From an uncultured Gelidibacter sp. (lineage in GTDB: Bacteria; Bacteroidota; Bacteroidia; Flavobacteriales; Flavobacteriaceae): a DNA stretch of 64,000 nt. The stretch is taken from positions 310,001-374,000 of the forward strand of contig NZ_CANMTE010000003.1 in the NCBI RefSeq assembly GCF_947500795.1, read 5' to 3'. Positions 1 to 8,414 of the stretch are shown here, piece after piece (position 1 is the stretch's first letter; every line of letters begins with the position of its first letter). The notes under the pieces were generated by a model. The model had not been told where the DNA came from and did no database searches. It was given only the letters and a program-made list of their open reading frames with translations. The position numbers were made by a program, and so were the translations under genes.

Positions 1-1043
1 ATTGCTTTTCCCCCATCACTTAAAGATGCCCCTCTGATAAAATCCATTTGGCCACCAACTCCGGAATACATCTTAGAACCGATAGAATCTGCACATACTT
101 GCCCGGTAACATCTACCTCAATAGCAGAATTTATAGCCACCATTCGAGGATTCTGTTTAATGATAGACACATCATTAGTGTAATTGGAAGCGCGCATTTC
201 AATAAACGGATTATCATCTACATAATCATACAACCGTTTCGAGCCCATCAGGAATGTTGCTAAGGACCGACCTCTATTGATGTTTTTATAATTTCCATTG
301 ATTACGTTTTTCAAAATTAAATCAATCACACCATCACTAAACATTTCAGTATGCAATCCTAAATCTTTATGATTGGTTAACCTCGACAATACCGCATTCG
401 GGATACTACCAATACCCATTTGCAATGTGCTTCTATCATCAATTAAACTGGCCACAAAATCACCTATCTTTCCCTCTGTTGCATTTGGTTCTTCCATAAA
501 ATGGATAGGCAACGGTTCATCACAATCCACAAACGCATCAATTTCTGCTATATGAATAATGCCCGCTCCGTGTGTTCTAGGCATTTGCTGATTGACCTGA
601 GCTATCACATATTTGGCATTATCAATGGCAGCTAATGTGGCTTCTACAGATACGCCAAGGGAACAATACCCATGCCTATCAGGAACAGACACATGAATTA
701 AAACGACATCTAAATCGATAATACGTCGCTTAAAAAGTAATGGCAATTCGCTTAAAAAAACTGGCGTATAAGACCCGTTTCCAGCTTTTATGGTGTGTCT
801 GACGTTCTTACCAATAAAAAAGCAGTTCACATGGAAACTGTCCTTTAACTCCGGGTTGGCATAAGGCGCTTCGCCTTCTGTATGCAATTGGCAAATTTCC
901 ACATTCCTGAGTTCTTCATGCCGATTAGCCAAGGCATTAACAAGCAATTGTGGAGCGGCAGCGGCTGCCTGTATATAAATACGATCATTTGATTTTACCG
1001 CCTTTAAGGCTTCTTCTGCAGAAACTGATTTGTACATATTCAT
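1..1043 (-). CDS. Acetyl-CoA hydrolase/transferase family protein (4-hydroxybutyrate CoA-transferase-like), 3' end outside window
   Basis: I translated the reverse strand from 1043 to the window edge: it is open for 347 codons. It begins MNMYKSVSAEEALKAVK and continues through a CoA-transferase fold with VLIHVSVPDRHGYCSLG near residue 120 and HTEMFSDGV near residue 231. The Glu at about 233 in HTEM sits where this family carries the glutamate that forms the covalent CoA thioester. The family moves CoA between acetate or another short acid and an acyl-CoA, or hydrolyses acetyl-CoA, in the cytoplasm. The C-terminus lies beyond base 1, so the total length is unknown. An alternative start is the ATG at 1037. 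It is divergent from map. The substrate cannot be fixed from sequence. Confidence 0.85.
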   Translation of the reverse strand, partial: MNMYKSVSAEEALKAVKSNDRIYIQAAAAAPQLLVNALANRHEELRNVEICQLHTEGEAPYANPELKDSFHVNCFFIGKNVRHTIKAGNGSYTPVFLSELPLLFKRRIIDLDVVLIHVSVPDRHGYCSLGVSVEATLAAIDNAKYVIAQVNQQMPRTHGAGIIHIAEIDAFVDCDEPLPIHFMEEPNATEGKIGDFVASLIDDRSTLQMGIGSIPNAVLSRLTNHKDLGLHTEMFSDGVIDLILKNVINGNYKNINRGRSLATFLMGSKRLYDYVDDNPFIEMRASNYTNDVSIIKQNPRMVAINSAIEVDVTGQVCADSIGSKMYSGVGGQMDFIRGASLSDGGKA

Positions 1044-1055
1044 CCAATTTAATTG

Positions 1056-1063
1056 CAAAACTA
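1056..1063 (-). promoter_or_regulatory. Candidate -7 element for the CoA-transferase gene
   Basis: The reverse strand reads TAGTTTTG, matching the Bacteroidota -7 word TAnnTTTG, 12 bases ahead of the ATG at 1043. No good -33 TTG was seen, so support is modest. Confidence 0.35.
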
Positions 1064-1133
1064 TCCAACAAAATGCAGTAAAAAACTGTCGAAAGTCATG
1101 TTTTCAAAAAATGTCCACCCCATTTATTTTAAG

Positions 1134-1141
1134 TATCTTTG
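1134..1141 (+). promoter_or_regulatory. Candidate -7 element for map
   Basis: TATCTTTG matches TAnnTTTG and ends 17 bases before the ATG at 1159. It argues against the upstream in-frame starts, which would place the start codon inside or before the promoter. Confidence 0.4.
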
Positions 1142-1158
1142 CCAATATTTTTTTTACA

Positions 1159-1977
1159 ATGATTATACAAAAAACACGAGAAGAAATAGAATTGATGCGT
1201 GAAAGTGCGCTTATCGTTTCTAAAACTTTAGGCATGTTGGCCAAGGAAGTAAAACCTGGCGTTACTACCATGCAATTGGATAAAATGGCAGAAGAATTTA
1301 TTCGCGAACAAGGTGCCATTCCTGGATTTTTGGGTCTTTATGATTGTCCTTCTACCCTACTTTGCAGTACCAATGAAGCTGTAGTCCATGGATTGCCAAC
1401 AAATGTGCCTTTGAAAGAAGGAGACGTTGTAGCCATCGATTGTGGTGCTATTAAGAACGAGTTTTACGGGGATCATGCCTATACTTTTGAAATTGGTGAA
1501 GTTGCACCTGAAACCAAAAAGCTCCTTCAAATTACCAAAGAGTCTTTATATGTAGGTATCAGAGAATTAAAAGTCGGCAATCGCGTTGGTGATGTTGGTT
1601 TTGCTATTCAGCAATATTGCGAAGCCGAAGGTTACGGTGTGGTTAGAGAATTAGTAGGTCATGGATTAGGGAAGAAAATGCACGAGGATCCTGAAATGCC
1701 TAACTACGGAAAACGTGGTCGTGGTAAAAAGTTTGTTGAAGGTATGGTTGTGGCAATTGAGCCTATGATTAACTTAGGGACGCATCGTATCAAACAATTG
1801 AATGACGGTTGGACTATCGTTACTCTAGATGGGAAACCTAGTGCGCATTTTGAACACGATGTAGCTATCGTTGATGGGAAACCAGAGATATTGTCGACTT
1901 TCGGGTATATTTATGAAGCATTGGGGATTGTGTCTGATGAGGAAGATGAGTTTAGGCAGAAGGCTTTAGTTTTATAG
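1159..1977 (+). CDS. map: Type I methionine aminopeptidase
   Basis: This cytoplasmic enzyme removes the initiator methionine from nascent proteins. From the ATG at 1159 the product has 272 residues, the usual size for type I. The pita-bread metal ligands are all visible: D94 (AIDCG), D105 (YGDHA), H168 (VGHGLG), E201 (AIEPM) and E232 (HFEHD), with the substrate-side H77 in VVHGLP. The frame is open upstream to a start at 1030, but that extension is not family-like and would cross the likely promoter at 1134, so I chose 1159. Its stop lies 6 bases before the repeat array that precedes the GxxExxY gene. Confidence 0.96.
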   Translation: MIIQKTREEIELMRESALIVSKTLGMLAKEVKPGVTTMQLDKMAEEFIREQGAIPGFLGLYDCPSTLLCSTNEAVVHGLPTNVPLKEGDVVAIDCGAIKNEFYGDHAYTFEIGEVAPETKKLLQITKESLYVGIRELKVGNRVGDVGFAIQQYCEAEGYGVVRELVGHGLGKKMHEDPEMPNYGKRGRGKKFVEGMVVAIEPMINLGTHRIKQLNDGWTIVTLDGKPSAHFEHDVAIVDGKPEILSTFGYIYEALGIVSDEEDEFRQKALVL

Positions 1978-1983
1978 AGCTTT

Positions 1984-2025
1984 CACGGAGATACGCGGAG
2001 ATTTCGCAGAGATACACTGAGATTT
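1984..2025 (+). repeat. Left array of four 10-11 bp units (CRCNGAGATW type) abutting the GxxExxY start
   Basis: Four head-to-tail units are visible: CACGGAGATA, CGCGGAGATTT, CGCAGAGATA and CACTGAGATTT, of 10, 11, 10 and 11 bases. The last unit ends at the base before the ATG at 2026. An inverted counterpart with the same spacing lies at 2395-2436. Confidence 0.85.
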
Positions 2026-2403
2026 ATGAACGATAAATTGACTGAACGAATTATTGGAGCAGCCATAGAAGTTCATAGAACTTTAGGTCCAGGATTGTTG
2101 GAATCTGCATATCAGAAGTGTTTATTTTTCGAACTCAAGTCTCAAGGTTTTGAAGTTCAGCAAGAAATTCCGCTACCCATTATTTATAAAGATATTAAGC
2201 TTGATCATGGCTATCGTATTGATTTATTAGTCGAGAATGAGGTGGTCATCGAAATAAAAACCGTCGATAAGTTTACTGATGTGCATTTTGCACAAATATT
2301 AACCTATCTAAAACTAGGGCATTTCCCTAAAGGATTGCTCATTAATTTTCACACCAAACTATTAACTACAGGCATTAAACGCTTCATTAATTCACCTCTG
2401 TGA
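2026..2403 (+). CDS. GxxExxY protein, PD-(D/E)XK nuclease-like
   Basis: The 125-residue product carries the signature that names the family: G23, E26 and Y29 in GPGLLESAY. Downstream, D66 (YRIDLL) and E76-x-K78 (VIEIK) form the D...ExK core of the PD-(D/E)XK nuclease superfamily, and AQILTYLKLG follows as a helix. Family members are small solitary proteins of unproven function; some relatives are encoded within 23S rRNA intervening sequences. The gene is packed between two inverted short-unit arrays: the left one touches its ATG and the right one contains its TGA. This suggests that gene and arrays form one inserted unit between map and the methyltransferase. Nuclease activity is an inference from the intact core residues. 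Confidence 0.88.
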   Translation: MNDKLTERIIGAAIEVHRTLGPGLLESAYQKCLFFELKSQGFEVQQEIPLPIIYKDIKLDHGYRIDLLVENEVVIEIKTVDKFTDVHFAQILTYLKLGHFPKGLLINFHTKLLTTGIKRFINSPL

Positions 2404-2436
2404 ATCTCTGCGCTTTCTCTGTGAATCTCTGTGACC
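2395..2436 (-). repeat. Right array, inverted copy of the 10-11 bp unit array
   Basis: Read on the minus strand this gives units CACAGAGATT, CACAGAGAAAG, CGCAGAGATT and a partial CACAGAGG, again spaced 10, 11, 10. Aligned by hand with the array at 1984, roughly three quarters of positions match. It contains the GxxExxY stop codon and ends 5 bases before the TTG start of the next gene. Confidence 0.82.
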
Positions 2437-2440
2437 CATT

Positions 2441-3205
2441 TTGAAGAAACTCTTTAAATTAATCCTCAACACCATCCCAAGGCCAATCCTCATCCGATTG
2501 AGTTATGTGGCACGGCCTGTTTTAGCTTTCTTTTTAAAGGGCGATAAATTTACTGATCCGATAGATGGTAAGAGTTTCAAAACCTTTTTACCTTATGGCT
2601 ATGGTACGCAACGCAACAATGTGTTATCGCCATCAACATTAAGTTTGGAACGCCACCGACTGTTATGGTTGTATCTTAAAAGCGACACAGATTTCTTTAC
2701 CGCGCCTAAGAAAGTCCTTCATTTTGCGCCAGAGCAAGCATTTTACAAACGATTCAGAGCAATGAAGCATTTGGATTATGTGACAACGGATTTAAATTCG
2801 CCGTTGGCTGATGTGAAGGCTGACATTTGCAATCTGCCGTTTAAGGACAATGAGTTTGATGTCATTTTATGCAATCATGTGTTGGAACATATTCCGGATG
2901 ACACGAAAGCTATGCAGGAATTATATCGAATTATGAAACCTGGGGGTTATGGGATTTTCCAGATTCCTCAGGATTTGAATAGAGCAGAGACTTTTGAAGA
3001 TGATACTATTACAGATCAGAAAGAACGGGCTGCTATTTTTGGTCAGTATGATCATGTTCGGATTTATGGTCGGGATTATTTTGATAAGCTTCGTTCTATT
3101 GGATTTACAGTAGAGGAAGTTGATTATACGGCGACACTTTCGGATGAAGACGTTATGCGGTATTGCTTAGCGAAAGGGGAAGTAATTCCGGTGGTGCGGA
3201 AGTAA
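2441..3205 (+). CDS. Class I SAM-dependent methyltransferase (type 11 fold), TTG start
   Basis: The 254-residue protein has a methyltransferase core: VLHFAPE in place of the usual motif I, DYVTTDLN for motif II, and DVILCNHVLEHIPDD followed by RIMKPGGYGIF for the later motifs. The substrate is unknown. The basic, hydrophobic N-terminus (MKKLFKLIL) is intact from the TTG at 2441, while an in-frame TGA at 2432 blocks any longer start and the next in-frame ATG lies deep in the domain. The repeat array of the GxxExxY unit ends 5 bases upstream, so the native leader and possibly the A of an ancestral ATG were replaced. Translation may be weak. Confidence 0.85.
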   Translation: MKKLFKLILNTIPRPILIRLSYVARPVLAFFLKGDKFTDPIDGKSFKTFLPYGYGTQRNNVLSPSTLSLERHRLLWLYLKSDTDFFTAPKKVLHFAPEQAFYKRFRAMKHLDYVTTDLNSPLADVKADICNLPFKDNEFDVILCNHVLEHIPDDTKAMQELYRIMKPGGYGIFQIPQDLNRAETFEDDTITDQKERAAIFGQYDHVRIYGRDYFDKLRSIGFTVEEVDYTATLSDEDVMRYCLAKGEVIPVVRK

Positions 3206-3234
3206 GTTGTCGGGGTAAAAGTTTCGTGTTTTGG

Positions 3235-3440
3235 GATTATGGGATTCCTCCTTCGTCGGAATGAGAAAACTGATGTTAATCTTGATAGAAGCCGTTTACT
3301 GTAACGAATACTATAGTGCTTGATTATGGGATTCCTCCTTTGTCGGAATGACAAATTGTTGCTAATATTTATGGAGGGCAATTTCTGTAACGATTCTATA
3401 GTGCTTGATTATGGGATTCCTCCTTTGTCGGAATGACAAA
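3235..3440. repeat. Three direct copies of an ~86 bp intergenic repeat with a GGAATCCCATAATC-type core
   Basis: The core GATTATGGGATTCCTCC-TT(C/T)GTCGGAATGA occurs at 3235, 3322 and 3407, a period of 85-87 bases. Copies 2 and 3 also share the preceding CTGTAACGA...CTATAGTGCTT, so the repeated unit is longer than the core. On the minus strand the core reads TCATTCCGACAAAGGAGG. The array lies between two convergent genes (methyltransferase and apbE). No open frame in it is credible. Confidence 0.85.
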
Positions 3441-3445
3441 ATAAA

Positions 3446-4471
3446 TTAATCTTCAGGGAAACCGTTTAGGGATAGCGTTTCCAATTCCCTTTTATCATTT
3501 TCAAAAATCAAGAATACTTTTAATTCTGGGTGAGTTGCTAAAAAGGCTTTCACCTTTTCAATTCCCATAGCTTTAAATGCCGTGGCGTAGGCATCAGCGG
3601 TCATACAGTCATCAGCAATTACTGAAATACTCAACAAATTCGTTTTACTTGGATATCCCGTTTGGGCATCGATAATATGAGAGTAACGATTTCCCAAACT
3701 GTCCGTTTTAAACTTTCGATAGGTTCCAGATGTGGCCATGGCTTCATCATGCAGGGCAATCACTTTTAAAATGGATTGTTCACCATCAAAATGAGGCAAT
3801 TCAACACCTACTCTCCAAGGTTTTTGTTTTTCAAAATTCTGACCTTTACATCTAATTTCGCCGCCAATATCTACAATATAATCTTTGATATTCTGACTTT
3901 CGAGAAATTCTGCAATCACATCTACACCATATCCTTTGGCAATCGCATTAAAATCGATAAACGTATTCGGATTGTCTTTAACGATTTTATTGTTGTTTAA
4001 ATTCACCTTATCCAACCCAACACTCACCATCAAACTATCAATTTTAAGACTGTCTAAGGCAATTATTGTTCCTTCGGGACCAAAATCCCATGCGTTGACT
4101 AAAACGCCTATTGTCGGATCAAAAACACCGTTAGTAGCTTCATAAATTTCCTTCGACGCATTAAATACAATTTTGAAATGGGAATCCACCCGAACACCTT
4201 CATTGTGGTTAATTTTTGAAATATCTGAATCTGCTTGGTACGTCGACATTGAATTATTGATCACCTGAAATAAGCTATCAATTTGACGTTGATAGTTTAC
4301 ATTATCTTCAGAATGGTATTGCACACCATAAGTGGTTCCAAAAATGGCACCTGTTATGACAGTGTTTTTCGGTTCTTGCTTACAGGAGACTAAAACTAAG
4401 ATAAATAGGATTCCAAAAAGGTTTCGACTCTGTTTAAGTAAATTCATCAGGATACTTTTTGGTTCTTTCAT
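3446..4471 (-). CDS. apbE: FAD:protein FMN transferase, lipoprotein
   Basis: ApbE moves FMN from FAD onto a threonine of target proteins outside the inner membrane; known targets include NqrB and NqrC, both encoded nearby. The 341-residue product has a signal segment followed by the lipobox LVSC, so it is probably a lipoprotein. Family motifs are present: MSTYQADSDISKIN, FIDFNAIAKGYGVD, GEIRCKGQN, and the C-terminal HIIDAQTGYP and TADAYATA, the last giving the Mg/FAD ligands. Start at 4471 is the first ATG; Met8 is an alternative. It follows the small gene at 4481-4858 by 9 bases on the same strand. The nqr operon lies upstream beyond an opposite-strand gene. Confidence 0.93.
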   Translation of the reverse strand: MKEPKSILMNLLKQSRNLFGILFILVLVSCKQEPKNTVITGAIFGTTYGVQYHSEDNVNYQRQIDSLFQVINNSMSTYQADSDISKINHNEGVRVDSHFKIVFNASKEIYEATNGVFDPTIGVLVNAWDFGPEGTIIALDSLKIDSLMVSVGLDKVNLNNNKIVKDNPNTFIDFNAIAKGYGVDVIAEFLESQNIKDYIVDIGGEIRCKGQNFEKQKPWRVGVELPHFDGEQSILKVIALHDEAMATSGTYRKFKTDSLGNRYSHIIDAQTGYPSKTNLLSISVIADDCMTADAYATAFKAMGIEKVKAFLATHPELKVFLIFENDKRELETLSLNGFPED

Positions 4472-4480
4472 CTTCAGATT

Positions 4481-4858
4481 TTAATTCAGATTAGTGTCGA
4501 CCACTTGAATGCCATTGTATTCAATCAAGTATTCTTCGTTTAAATAAACTGGTAAATCTTCTCCTTTCGGATTACCGAGGCCGACACCTGCATATAAAAC
4601 TTTCGCATCCTTTTCCCTTGCATGTTTTTTGAAGGATTCCATCCAAATCATATCATAATTATTCGGGTTCTCAGGAAGCATCACCGCCTTAACGATGACA
4701 AAGAAATATTGCTTGTTTTTATCAATACAAACAAATTGAGGATGTCTTTTAAGTTTGCTATTGATGGCTATAAATTCAAAGCCTCGTTTCTCCAAATCCT
4801 TTCCGACATGGTTCATGGCGAGGTTATGTAGTTCTTGTGGTGTAAGTGCTTTGCTCAT
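4481..4858 (-). CDS. Conserved small protein, unknown function (possible degenerate nuclease-like fold)
   Basis: I do not recognise a characterised family. From the ATG at 4858 the product is 125 residues, soluble, with no signal or membrane segment. It runs helix, GFEFIAI strand, then HPQFVCIDKNKQYFFVIVKA (39-58), then a long charged helix and KVLYAGVGLG. This layout resembles the alpha-beta-beta-beta-alpha-beta order of PD-(D/E)XK proteins, with only P40 and K57 at catalytic-like places. The track frame could start at 4885, but a likely -7 element at 4863-4870 favours 4858. It is probably co-transcribed with apbE (9 base gap), which suggests a link to flavinylation or the NQR pump, unproven. 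Confidence 0.7.
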   Translation of the reverse strand: MSKALTPQELHNLAMNHVGKDLEKRGFEFIAINSKLKRHPQFVCIDKNKQYFFVIVKAVMLPENPNNYDMIWMESFKKHAREKDAKVLYAGVGLGNPKGEDLPVYLNEEYLIEYNGIQVVDTNLN

Positions 4859-4862
4859 GTTG

Positions 4863-4870
4863 CAAAAATA
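4863..4870 (-). promoter_or_regulatory. Candidate -7 element for the 4481-4858/apbE unit
   Basis: The reverse strand reads TATTTTTG (TAnnTTTG) only 4 bases ahead of the ATG at 4858, so the transcript would be leaderless or nearly so. Confidence 0.35.
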
Positions 4871-5074
4871 CAATAATGCCAACAATTAAGATCTTAAGTA
4901 AATTAGAAAATATAACAAATCAAAAAAAATGGAAAATTCGGTTAGAACGATTTGAAATTGTAACATCCATTATCTTAGTTTTTGGAAATTCAAGCGTTTG
5001 TTACTGTTAAAACTCTTTAAAGACTTCATTTAAAATTGCTTTTTCAGTATCTTAATAGTCACAAACTTCTAATT

Positions 5075-5533
5075 ATGAACACTTCATACCGATTAGAACA
5101 AGCGCTAAAGAAACTATACACCGCGTTTCACAACAACACACTACACCCAGAATGTTGTCAGCAGTGTGCCGTAGGAAATATTTTGGACAATACCGATGCC
5201 TGGAAACATCTTTCCGACCGTCATGGATCGTTACAGTTGAATTATGTGGGTTTGGTAAATCAGAATATTGGAAGGACATTTAATGGGTATGCTCCTCTCG
5301 AATTACTGCAAATTGAAGCCACATTCCTTAAAGCTTGTGGCTATAGTTTACCCTTACTTCATGGTGGAAGGAAACCAAAATCCCCAACAGACAAGTCCAT
5401 ACTTTTTGAAGGCTTATGTGCAACAGTTGCATTGCTATGTGAGCTGGATGGCGTCGAAAATGTAATGGATTGTTCTAAAATCTTTGATTATAATCCTGAA
5501 CAAAATCACCACATCACAAACATGATTGTATAA
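5075..5533 (+). CDS. Conserved hypothetical protein with a CC..C cysteine cluster
   Basis: The 152-residue soluble protein begins MNTSYRLEQALKKLYTAF. It has HPECCQQCAVGN near residues 23-34, a compact cysteine group that could bind a metal or form a redox site, and further Cys residues at GLCATVALLCELDG. I recall close homologues in Flavobacteriaceae, sometimes labelled as NqrF, but nothing here resembles the ferredoxin or FAD domains of NqrF, so I do not use that name. The frame is open from 5036, but the ATG at 5075 matches the family N-terminus. It converges on nqrF with a shared bidirectional terminator at 5532-5563. Confidence 0.72.
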   Translation: MNTSYRLEQALKKLYTAFHNNTLHPECCQQCAVGNILDNTDAWKHLSDRHGSLQLNYVGLVNQNIGRTFNGYAPLELLQIEATFLKACGYSLPLLHGGRKPKSPTDKSILFEGLCATVALLCELDGVENVMDCSKIFDYNPEQNHHITNMIV

Positions 5534-5563
5534 AAAAACCCAACACTTTCATGTTGGGTTTTT
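5532..5563. terminator. Bidirectional intrinsic terminator
   Basis: AAACCCAACA, a 6-base loop, TGTTGGGTTT forms a perfect 10 bp stem with A and T runs on both sides. It ends the + gene at 5533 and nqrF on the minus strand. A second short dyad TTCCTAT...ATAGGAA lies at 5567-5584. Confidence 0.85.
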
Positions 5564-5618
5564 AAATTCCTATGCTAATAGGAACCTATGATATAAAATT
5601 AAGATTCAATTTTAATGA

Positions 5619-6929
5619 TTATCCACCAAAGTCGTCAAATCTGATGTTCTCATCTGGGATTCCGAAGTCTTCACCCATCTTTTGAACCGCTTGGTTCATC
5701 AACGGAGGACCACAGAAATACAATTCGATATCTTCTGGTGATTCATGGTGATTTAGGTAGTTATCAATAACACAGTTGTGAATAAATCCTACGAAACCAT
5801 CTCCAGGAGCGTCAATATTTTCTTTTACTTGCCAATTATCTTCTTCCAAAGGTTCAGACAAGGCTAAGTAAAATTTAAAGTTAGGGAAATCTCTTTCTAA
5901 CTCACGGAAATGCTCTAGGTAGAACAACTCACGTTTAGAACGACCACCATACCAATATGTTACTTTACGACCTGTTTTTAAGGTTTTGAATAAGTGGTAC
6001 AAGTGAGAACGCATTGGCGCCATACCAGCTCCACCACCAACATATAACATTTCTGCCTCAGATTCATTGATAAAGAATTCACCGTAAGGACCTGAAATAA
6101 CTACTTTATCACCTTTTTTCTGATTAAAGATGTAAGATGATGCGATACCTGGGTTCACATCCATCCAACCGTTTTTAGCACGATCAAAAGGAGGTGTTGC
6201 AATACGAACGTTCAACATAATTTCACGTCCTTCTGCAGGGTAAGAAGCCATAGAATAAGCACGCTCTACAGTTTCTTCATTTTTCATTACCAATGGCCAC
6301 AATTTAAATTTGTCCCATTCTTCTTGGAATTTATCTGGTCTGTCATGCTCTTCAGGATGCGCAGTGATATCCATATCCGCGAAGTTTATAGTACATGGTG
6401 GAATTTCAATTTGGATATACCCACCTGCTTTGTAGCCCATATCTTCTGGAATCTCAACAACAAACTCTTTAATGAAAGATGCTACGTTATAATTTCTTAC
6501 AACTGTTGCTTCCCATTTTTTAATTCCGAATACTTCCTCAGGAATGGTAATTTCCATATCCTGTTTTACTTTTACCTGACATGATAAACGTGCACCATGT
6601 TGTAATTCTTTTCTTGTAAAGTGAGGTGTTTCTGTTGGAAGCGCTTCACCTCCACCTGATAATACATGACATTCACATTGAATACATGTTCCACCACCAC
6701 CACAAGCTGATGGTAAGAATATTTTTTCACTACCAAGTGTAGATAGTAAACTATTACCTGAAGATACTTCTATCTCACGTTCACCGTTAATCAAGATTTT
6801 AACCGGTCCTGATGGTGATAACTTTTGTTTTACAAAGAGCAATAATGTTACCAATACCAGCGTGATTATTAAAAAGGCTGCTACTGTTGCTATAATGGTA
6901 CCTAAGGTTCCTGCTGCTAATAAAATCAT
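5619..6929 (-). CDS. nqrF: Na+-translocating NADH:quinone reductase subunit F
   Basis: NqrF is the electron-entry subunit: it oxidises NADH through FAD and a [2Fe-2S] cluster at the inner face of the membrane. The 436-residue product has an N-terminal membrane helix (residues ~5-30), a ferredoxin domain with SACGGGGTCIQCECH near 75 and a fourth Cys in RLSCQV, then the FAD-binding RAYSMASYP and the NAD-binding GGGAGMAPMRSHLY, ending with the family-typical IRFDDFGG. It is the last gene of nqrABCDEF, one base after nqrE. Length and domain order are standard. Confidence 0.97.
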   Translation of the reverse strand: MILLAAGTLGTIIATVAAFLIITLVLVTLLLFVKQKLSPSGPVKILINGEREIEVSSGNSLLSTLGSEKIFLPSACGGGGTCIQCECHVLSGGGEALPTETPHFTRKELQHGARLSCQVKVKQDMEITIPEEVFGIKKWEATVVRNYNVASFIKEFVVEIPEDMGYKAGGYIQIEIPPCTINFADMDITAHPEEHDRPDKFQEEWDKFKLWPLVMKNEETVERAYSMASYPAEGREIMLNVRIATPPFDRAKNGWMDVNPGIASSYIFNQKKGDKVVISGPYGEFFINESEAEMLYVGGGAGMAPMRSHLYHLFKTLKTGRKVTYWYGGRSKRELFYLEHFRELERDFPNFKFYLALSEPLEEDNWQVKENIDAPGDGFVGFIHNCVIDNYLNHHESPEDIELYFCGPPLMNQAVQKMGEDFGIPDENIRFDDFGG

Positions 6930-6930
6930 C

Positions 6931-7665
6931 TTATTCGTTTACTTTAGTGATGTTCAACGTTTGTTTATCTTCTGTAGTTTTTTCAATTTGAGATAGTTCT
7001 TTATCTCCTTCTTGTACAACAGTTCCTTTAGCTACTTCTGGTTCATCGCCACCAGTTAGCATTCCTCCAAAGCTCATAAAACCAATAGCCATTAATCCGG
7101 TAATGATAAACGTGATCCCTAAACCTCTTAATGCTGGTGGAACGTTAGAATATCTTATTTTCTCACGGATGGCAGCAATAGTAAGAATTGCTAAGAACCA
7201 ACCGATTCCTGAAGACACACCGTAGTTAAACGCCAATCCTAAGGTTTGGATATCTCTTGATTGCATGAATAATGAACCACCCAAGATGGCACAGTTAACC
7301 GCAATAAGAGGTAAGAAAATACCTAATGAATTATATAATGAAGGTGAAAATTTCTCTACAACAATCTCTACCAATTGTACCATTGTTGCAATGGTTGCGA
7401 TAAACATGATAAAGGAAAGGAAACTCAAGTCGTAGCTTGCATATTCTTCACCTAACCAAACTAACGCGCCGTCTTTCAAAATGTATTGATCCAACAACCA
7501 GTTTAAAGGTACTGTAATGGCCAATACGAAGATGACCGCAGCACCAAGACCAACTGCTGTAGCTACTTTTTTAGATACCGCAAGGTAAGAACACATCCCA
7601 AGGAACGTAGCAAATACCATGTTATCTATAAATATCGATTTAAAAAATAATTCTAAGTGTTCCAT
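6931..7665 (-). CDS. nqrE: Na+-translocating NADH:quinone reductase subunit E, with hydrophilic C-terminal tail
   Basis: NqrE is one of the two homologous six-helix membrane subunits (with NqrD) that hold an iron centre between inverted half-membrane helices. The 244-residue product shows [14 protein letters not shown] near the N-terminus and [14 protein letters not shown] in the middle, both carrying the cysteines expected for the iron site. After the usual end of the family, at about FMSFGGML, there is an extra ~38-residue polar tail rich in E, D, K and T. Most described NqrE proteins are near 200 residues. It precedes nqrF by one base and follows nqrD by a 98-base gap, the only loose junction in the operon. 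Confidence 0.95.
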
Positions 7666-7736
7666 TTTTTAAGTTATAAGTTTTAGTACTTAAAGTGCCT
7701 AAAGTTTTATAATTCAAATAACATTAAACTGTTACT

Positions 7737-7760
7737 TGACAACTGAAGACTGCCTATTTG
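7737..7760 (+). repeat. Short copy of the ACTGAAGACTGCC repeat family between nqrD and nqrE
   Basis: TGACAACTGAAGACTGCCTA matches the AACTGAAGACTGC and AGACTGCCTACTG words of the repeat blocks at 42182 and 43939. It sits inside the 98-base nqrD-nqrE gap. Confidence 0.5.
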
Positions 7761-7763
7761 AGT

Positions 7764-8414
7764 TTAGTCTTCTATTAAATCTTTGTTTCTACTACGTTGG
7801 ATCCAGATAATGATACCGATAACAATTAGTGCCATTGGCGATAATAACATAAATCCGTTATTCTCATATCCTAATGCGTATAATCCTGTTTGCTCTCCTG
7901 GAATTGGGTTACCTAATACAGGGAATCCTAATAAAGTTCCTGAACCTAATAACTCTCTGAAGAAACCAACAATAATTAATATCACACCATAACCAGCAGC
8001 ATTACCAATACCGTCCAAGAACGAACGCCAAGGACCATTTCCTAAAGCGAACGCTTCAAAACGACCCATGATAATACAGTTAGTAATAATTAATCCGACG
8101 AAAACAGAAAGTGTTTTACTCAATTCGTAAGCGAATGCTTTTAACACTTGGTCAACAATAATTACTAAAGCAGCAACTACAACAAGTTGAACAATAATTC
8201 TAATTTTAGAAGGAATAACATTTCTTAATAAAGAGATCACTACGTTTCCGATGCCCAATACGAACAATACAGAAACGGCCATTACTATGGAAGCTTTCAA
8301 CTCAGCCGTAATCGCTAAAGCGGAACAGATTCCAAGTACCTGAATTGTAATAGGGTTATTGTCAGCTAATGGATCAGTAATTAATTTTGTATCTTTTTTA
8401 GATAAAAGTCCCAT
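7764..8414 (-). CDS. nqrD: Na+-translocating NADH:quinone reductase subunit D
   Basis: The 216-residue membrane protein is the partner of NqrE. It has six hydrophobic segments, LGICSALAITAEL near residue 28 and LIITNCIIMGRFEAF near 108, with Cys residues at the positions that ligate the intramembrane iron. The C-terminus SRNKDLIED is polar. It starts 3 bases after nqrC. Length is normal for the family. Confidence 0.96.
   Translation of the reverse strand: MGLLSKKDTKLITDPLADNNPITIQVLGICSALAITAELKASIVMAVSVLFVLGIGNVVISLLRNVIPSKIRIIVQLVVVAALVIIVDQVLKAFAYELSKTLSVFVGLIITNCIIMGRFEAFALGNGPWRSFLDGIGNAAGYGVILIIVGFFRELLGSGTLLGFPVLGNPIPGEQTGLYALGYENNGFMLLSPMALIVIGIIIWIQRSRNKDLIED

Follow-up and report, generated by a model that had tools for sequence, protein, structure and literature searches.

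Phased inverted arrays around GxxExxY genes, and their gene-less relatives, as a possible REPtron-like repeat system served by a nuclease-family protein

In REPtrons, a RAYT (TnpA-REP) gene lies between inverted REP/BIME repeats, these repeats are also dispersed between other genes, and repeat and protein co-vary (PMC2817692, PMC8266576). A small ORF between complementary arms is likewise found in 23S rRNA intervening sequences with an S23/IVP frame, and for the Coxiella 23S element one paper describes complementary ends and tandem heptamers before its S23 ORF (PMC4990558). The corresponding family, PF05635 (23S_rRNA_IVP), is named after these intervening sequences and, according to another paper, resembles Avd, the essential reverse-transcriptase partner in diversity-generating retroelements (PMC10053308). 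The protein family considered here is GxxExxY, for which our search of the open-access literature found no tested role; arrays or repeats are unmentioned in the open-access passages that name it, and PDDEXK_3, Avd combined with S23, the array strings and the combination of the repeat with Flavobacterium gave no match in the same literature.

The locus studied lies in a stretch of 64,000 nucleotides from an uncultured Gelidibacter sp., hereafter the window, where a GxxExxY gene stands between inverted phased arrays, as the sequence-only reading had claimed. The features are as follows, the arrays being placed from the sequence and pattern matches and the neighbouring genes by Pfam:

1159-1977, plus strand: map, methionine aminopeptidase (PF00557), left neighbour, conserved at the site
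1984-2021, plus strand: left array, four CRCNGAG units with spacing 10-11-10, pointing into the gene
1984-1990, plus strand: left unit CACGGAG
1994-2000, plus strand: left unit CGCGGAG
2005-2011, plus strand: left unit CGCAGAG
2015-2021, plus strand: left unit CACTGAG
2026-2403, plus strand: GxxExxY gene, 125 aa, PD-(D/E)XK nuclease fold (TIGR04256, PF13366, fold)
2396-2433, minus strand: right array, four inverted units with spacing 10-11-10 from outside in
2427-2433, 2417-2423, 2406-2412 and 2396-2402, minus strand: units of the right array
2441-3205, plus strand: SAM-dependent methyltransferase (PF08241), right neighbour

Four CRCNGAG units are present on each side; the 10/11 phasing first described therefore stands, but with three spacings per arm (10-11-10) in place of the 10-11-10-11 given before, and the right array, previously set at 2395-2436, is corrected to 2396-2433. 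The two arms form one inverted repeat (1983-2033 and 2384-2434) of 51 nt with 73% complementarity, and since the frame runs from 2026 to 2403, the GxxExxY gene shares its 3' end with the innermost unit of the right array. Of the pair of marks expected of insertion sequences and MITEs, inverted ends together with a target-site duplication, the inverted arms are present at the window locus, and the duplication is unreadable (see below). Two three-unit patterns, allowed up to two mismatches, match seven times in the 3.46-Mb host genome, five times on the window arms and otherwise at C1:37503 and C1:43366, with zero matches of the reversed control in the whole genome; the exact pattern with looser letters gives one further array place (C1:1051368). 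The same genome holds two other GxxExxY genes whose array texts differ from those of the window, one beside a ACGCAGAT-type array (C2:137330) and one with CCACGAAT-type arrays around it (C3:125519), both read by eye. Separately, three copies of a GATTATGGGATTCCTCCTTTGTCGGAATGA-like text, apparently another dispersed repeat, follow the methyltransferase gene at 3229-3440 of the window.

The window protein matches both family models over their full length and well above the cut-offs, namely TIGR04256 with 152.4 bits (cut-off 35; E 6e-45; model positions 2-116 of 116) and PF13366 (PDDEXK_3), its sole Pfam match, with E 8e-43; these models name only the protein. Its AlphaFold model is confident (pLDDT 93.5), and the Foldseek matches to it are moderate, the first being 4ic1 (SSO0001), which we take to be a Cas4 (E 7e-4, TM-score 0.51 by query), and the next lambda exonuclease (E 0.013, TM-score 0.46 by query). 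Solved structures searched with a sequence profile of GxxExxY gave no match at E<=1, and PADLOC returned weak matches to Cas4 and to RT-associated PD-(D/E)XK proteins (best E 3e-4). The candidate catalytic residues read from the sequence are D66, E76-x-K78 and Q90xxxY94, in which D66, E76, K78, Q90 and Y94 presumably take the Cas4/lambda-exonuclease roles; across 27 aligned relatives D66, Q90 and Y94 never vary, and E76 and K78 hardly do. Conservation of D...E-x-K...QxxxY is expected of an active PD-(D/E)XK nuclease of the Cas4/lambda-exonuclease class. GxxExxY thus shares fold and residues with Cas4 and lambda exonuclease, but the window protein differs from them as a minimal domain of 125 aa with a single cysteine, and no CRISPR gene is among its named neighbours, the flanks being map and the methyltransferase gene. 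The nuclease-like character first attributed to the protein is borne out by family (PF13366) and fold (Foldseek), and GxxExxY is probably a minimal Cas4/lambda-exonuclease-like PD-(D/E)XK enzyme with a predicted cutting activity. Among six genus orthologues of the window gene, the frameshifted G003 copy being left out, 12 of the 15 pairs have a dN/dS of 0.02-0.07; one near-identical pair reaches 0.19, two pairs are saturated, and several dS values are above 1.

That the arrays might be a peculiarity of the window locus was rejected, since they recur in the loci of the family and in 80 named loci, which are mostly from Bacteroidota, many of them from metagenome bins, and include Proteobacteria, Planctomycetota, Acidobacteria, Chloroflexi and others. 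After removal of 11 of 130 loci (no or short frame, or truncated), the flanks of the GxxExxY gene form a significant inverted repeat (p<=0.01) in 87 of 119 loci and none that is significant in 32, against 0 of 64 control ORFs at p<=0.01 and 2 of 64 at p<=0.05, the controls being drawn from the window and one other stretch of the host genome. The unit frame that recurs across loci is CRCNRAK (CACAGAG, CGCAAAG, CACGAAT, CACAGAT and others). Among 146 loci, 56 left arms and 62 right arms carry chains of four units, most frequently with the spacing 10-11-10 (23 left, 21 right), and 9-12-9 (6 left, 11 right) comes second on the right; both spacings give about 21 bp per unit pair. The self-similarity of the flanks peaks at lag 10 (raised from 8 to 13), with a second hump at 19-23. 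A motif selected from the family loci was then applied to the named ones, and a score of at least 19 was reached in the expected orientation by 22 of 80 upstream-forward and 25 of 75 downstream-reverse flanks, compared with 8 of 80 and 3 of 75 in the wrong orientation and 15 of 1894 control windows. On the outer side of the arrays, 78 arms share only a weak T-N-T-T-A. The arrangement varies in some loci, the gene lying beside the hairpin and not between its arms in L315-L317, and the nearest flanking arrays being direct and not inverted at L002 and L329. As separate observations, the gene together with an array hairpin is repeated in tandem in L324 (G347) and L325 (G245), at distances of about 541 and 740 bp, an arrangement that unequal recombination would produce, and the gene of L329 (G312) is embedded among CACAGAT units that form a direct, satellite-like series and show a longer repeat order.

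The type of array follows the lineage of the protein, which, together with the 87 inverted loci, upholds the earlier claim that array and gene belong together. On the protein tree, the AG or AT ending of the unit changes twice over 103 labelled loci (500 shuffles: mean 13.4, minimum 10) and the CAC or CGC start ten times over 96 (mean 28, minimum 20), while the finer AGg/AGa label is weakly tree-like, with 16 changes over 79 loci (mean 24, minimum 15); the tree, built from 152 proteins and 122 columns, is short and poorly resolved, and 49 of its 152 rows have too few units for an array label. Several array types may coexist in one genome, and each then goes with a protein lineage of its own (G000, G007, G132). 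In 14 of the 15 genomes whose gene could be labelled, the dispersed arrays are of a type that also flanks a gene there, which is a weak test because only two of the 15 have AT-type arrays. This comparison covers 18 of the 79 array genomes with one to five listed arrays each, excluding G312 and G095, whose listed arrays lie at a gene; the exception is G142, with 16 AG-type arrays and a sole gene of AT type.

Arrays are also found apart from the gene. In the family sample, whose 149 genomes represent 148 genera of a single family, the strict three-unit pattern matched 58 times in 12 genomes and its reversed control not at all; 11 of these 12 carry GxxExxY, as against 32 of the 149 overall (p=1e-7), and the one array-bearing genome without the gene is 64% complete. 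The phylum sample has arrays in 70 of 395 genomes, 62 of the 70 being gene carriers compared with 186 of the 395 (p=2e-15, without kinship correction), with 346 array copies in gene carriers and 16 in others, and at least two matches of the reversed control. By eye, eight of the 58 family arrays have a GxxExxY gene no more than about 300 bp away, and the other 50 lie apart from any such gene. Most arrays are therefore without a gene nearby, which taken literally is an outcome that had been named as refuting the earlier reading, yet they are almost confined to gene-carrying genomes, and for this reason we read the dispersed arrays as gene-less relatives. Among 48 arrays read in context, four fall inside an ORF of at least 90 aa, compared with 73% of random positions, and gaps between divergent genes hold few (4 of 42 with both neighbours called). 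The gene-less forms comprise single arrays, arm-loop-arm hairpins, outward pairs, multi-type composite blocks and tandem series, with tandem growth at L329 and L331. G519 contains eight arrays and G322 two, although neither genome has a PF13366 match (for G519 at E<=1), and six more genomes without TIGR04256 have a single array each. The CACAGAG arrays of L326-L328 (G519) are long perfect or near-perfect palindromes whose outer flanks are palindromic as well. Composite intergenic blocks in L213-L223 (G142) and L224-L236 (G091) combine several adjoining periodic texts, in which arrays of CACAGAG and of CACGAAT/CACAGAT are joined by others such as TTTTCAAATCTTCAAATT, GTTATGGGTTATG and ACTTCGTACTTCGTA.

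The history of the window copy can be approached through its site. Empty sites, with map and the methyltransferase gene 2-9 nt apart, are seen in 8 of 28 family loci, in other genera, and at other loci the gap is longer or is taken up by different DNA. In 14 of the 149 family genomes a GxxExxY match falls at the site (compared by eye). Within the genus the site is filled in all nine genomes, seven times by the window type (frameshifted in G003) and twice by a second type (L017, L023) with a 35% identical GxxExxY and CACGAAT-type arrays, the L023 copy, in G005, being broken. The expected empty sites thus exist in other genera, and none was found among the nine genomes of the genus. At L017, the 3' end of map is partly duplicated, together with the left array of CACGAAT type, between map and the methyltransferase gene, and seven other loci (L058, L059, L064, L067, L068, L073, L075) have instead a gap of 326-329 nt with a small ORF, cupin-like by eye. 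At another site, flanked by genes for a hydrolase and a methyltransferase, five of the nine genus genomes have a gene-less CACAGAG hairpin, three a GxxExxY gene beside a CACAAAG hairpin and one another array type; the three long inserts encode GxxExxY proteins that are 62-66% identical. As both sites hold differing array or gene types, the elements share sites. The map-methyltransferase site accounts for 18 of 152 tree rows and five changes (17 in shuffles), of which starred branches force only two, which points to two or more arrivals and to descent that is mostly vertical. A recent jump was not observed, and a target-site duplication is unreadable because filled and empty map-methyltransferase sites have diverged too far. 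Carriage by phages or plasmids has little support: the window protein found no match in phage records and eight in 72,556 plasmid records, and a pattern search with A2 gave one GxxExxY locus on viral contigs; a GxxExxY protein is listed in one paper on an algal virus. By sequence comparison the window copy is old, mostly vertically inherited and constrained, and not a fast jumper. The array-gene association, the nuclease family and fold and the empty sites of other genera support part of the earlier picture of a mobile or selfish unit; movement itself was not seen.

These features invite comparison with REPtrons. The GxxExxY gene, at the window locus as at the 87 loci, is flanked by two inverted repeats, its arrays are dispersed without it (50 of 58), and array and protein co-vary with the single mismatch of G142. 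The enzymes are nevertheless different, GxxExxY being a PD-(D/E)XK protein of the Cas4/lambda-exonuclease kind whereas that of REPtrons is an HUH/Y1 transposase related to IS200/IS605, and so are the repeats, phased 7-nt cores every 10-11 bp in the one and a short palindrome with a GTAG-type head in the other. Because the enzyme that defines REPtrons is not the one found here, the GxxExxY system is REPtron-like in its working and not a REPtron. We consider it an even proposition that array, gene and array together are a copy of a REPtron-like repeat-plus-nuclease system acting on DNA, and both mobility and DNA cutting are inferred for it. It can be hypothesised that the GxxExxY protein would bind the units, which even phasing places on the same side of the helix, or else a hairpin formed by facing arrays, and would cut or resect there; repair may then copy the arrays, and occasionally the gene, into other intergenic places, preferably where an array is already present. 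Several observations count against this reading: the age and constraint of the window copy and the absence of observed jumps, the arrays of G519 and G322, neither of which has a PF13366 match, the unmatched types of G142, the 32 loci without significant inverted flanks, and the loci in which the gene is not enclosed by inverted arms (L315-L317, L002, L329).

Another explanation, which we regard as unlikely but worth weighing, reverses cause and effect: slippage and recombination would have spread the arrays as host or neutral repeats, perhaps bidirectional terminators, protein-binding sites or supercoiling sites, with GxxExxY as a host enzyme that trims hairpins or breaks there and is kept where arrays are common. 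The strong purifying selection and mostly vertical descent of the window copy would fit it, as would the tandem growth at L329 and L331, the palindromic arrays of G519, which has no PF13366 match, and the scarcity of arrays between divergent genes (4 of 42). A free host enzyme, however, need not sit inside arrays matched to its own lineage, as GxxExxY does, and several gene types can coexist in one genome, each paired with an array type of its own (G000, G007, G132).

Whether the arms act as RNA or as DNA bears on a further possibility, that the element is an RNA unit like a 23S intervening sequence, whose arms pair so that RNase III or GxxExxY excises it from the map-methyltransferase message. 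The 471-nt element does fold better than its shuffles (z -4.3) with the arms paired, which is expected of any inverted repeat, and PF05635 genes, like the Coxiella element, share the layout. Within loci the unit cores match to the same degree as between them (0.852, and 0.846 by permutation), while spacers match more within loci than across them (0.466 vs 0.378, p=0.0035, 19 loci); these 19 loci are what was left of 146 after removal of 107 that have no four-unit chain on one arm or the other, and of 20 out of the remaining 39 whose spacing is unequal. Pairing could produce the spacer excess, which shared descent explains too, and over half of the spacer positions are mismatched. If a sense-RNA stem were maintained, arm differences tolerated as G.U should exceed those of the A.C kind, but in the 87 loci they number 164 vs 181 (26 vs 38 loci); conservation of the arms as a sense-RNA stem accordingly lacks support and was set aside, and the RNA pairing suggested by the sequence-only reading is likewise unsupported. 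Gene-less hairpins and single arrays also exist, some between convergent genes, and an Rfam scan of 20 of the 80 named loci gave no match at the gathering score, rRNA included. In positions 1-8000 of the window Rfam gave only two sub-threshold, unrelated matches, and the identification of the window element as a 23S rRNA intervening sequence was rejected as it has no rRNA match; the scanned GxxExxY loci differ from such sequences in lying outside rRNA and in their period of about 10.5. An RNA unit is for these reasons improbable, and we infer that the arrays function at the DNA level.

The layout is not confined to GxxExxY. PF05635 occurs in 113 of the 149 family genomes, and among 29 of its loci (one of 30 dropped), drawn from the best-scoring matches (L251-L280), 19 have inverted flanks at p<=0.01, with flank self-similarity highest at lags 7, 14, 21 and 28. 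The PF05635 layout would thus parallel that of GxxExxY with a period of 7, like the Coxiella heptamers. That GxxExxY and the Avd-like PF05635 are partners in a defence or reverse-transcriptase system, serving retroelement copying supplied in trans with the arrays as cDNA products, would suit this common layout, the reported likeness to Avd and the PADLOC matches to Cas4 and RT-associated PD-(D/E)XK proteins, but with those matches weak (best E 3e-4) and so few copies on mobile replicons (one viral-contig locus, no phage record, 8 of 72,556 plasmid records) it is very improbable.

Taken at the level of the repeat-plus-nuclease reading, the results suggest a little-known family of spreading repeats tied to their own nuclease. 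We tentatively propose, as a possibility that we would still rather doubt than assert, that phased-array elements are a third kind of bacterial dispersed repeat beside IS/MITE and REPtron. Each small nucleic-acid protein would have an inverted array of its own, of a characteristic period (about 10.5 bp in the case of the Cas4-like GxxExxY, 7 bp in that of the Avd-like S23/IVP), would spread gene-less arrays in trans and would replace other types at shared intergenic sites. If this is true, the 23S intervening sequences would be merely the best-known landing place of the S23 branch. The pairing with arrays gives both the GxxExxY and the S23/IVP families, which are widespread (32 and 113 of the 149 family genomes), a concrete candidate substrate; the tie between GxxExxY and its arrays would account for one class of intergenic repeats, and a PD-(D/E)XK enzyme would join the nucleases that serve dispersed repeats.
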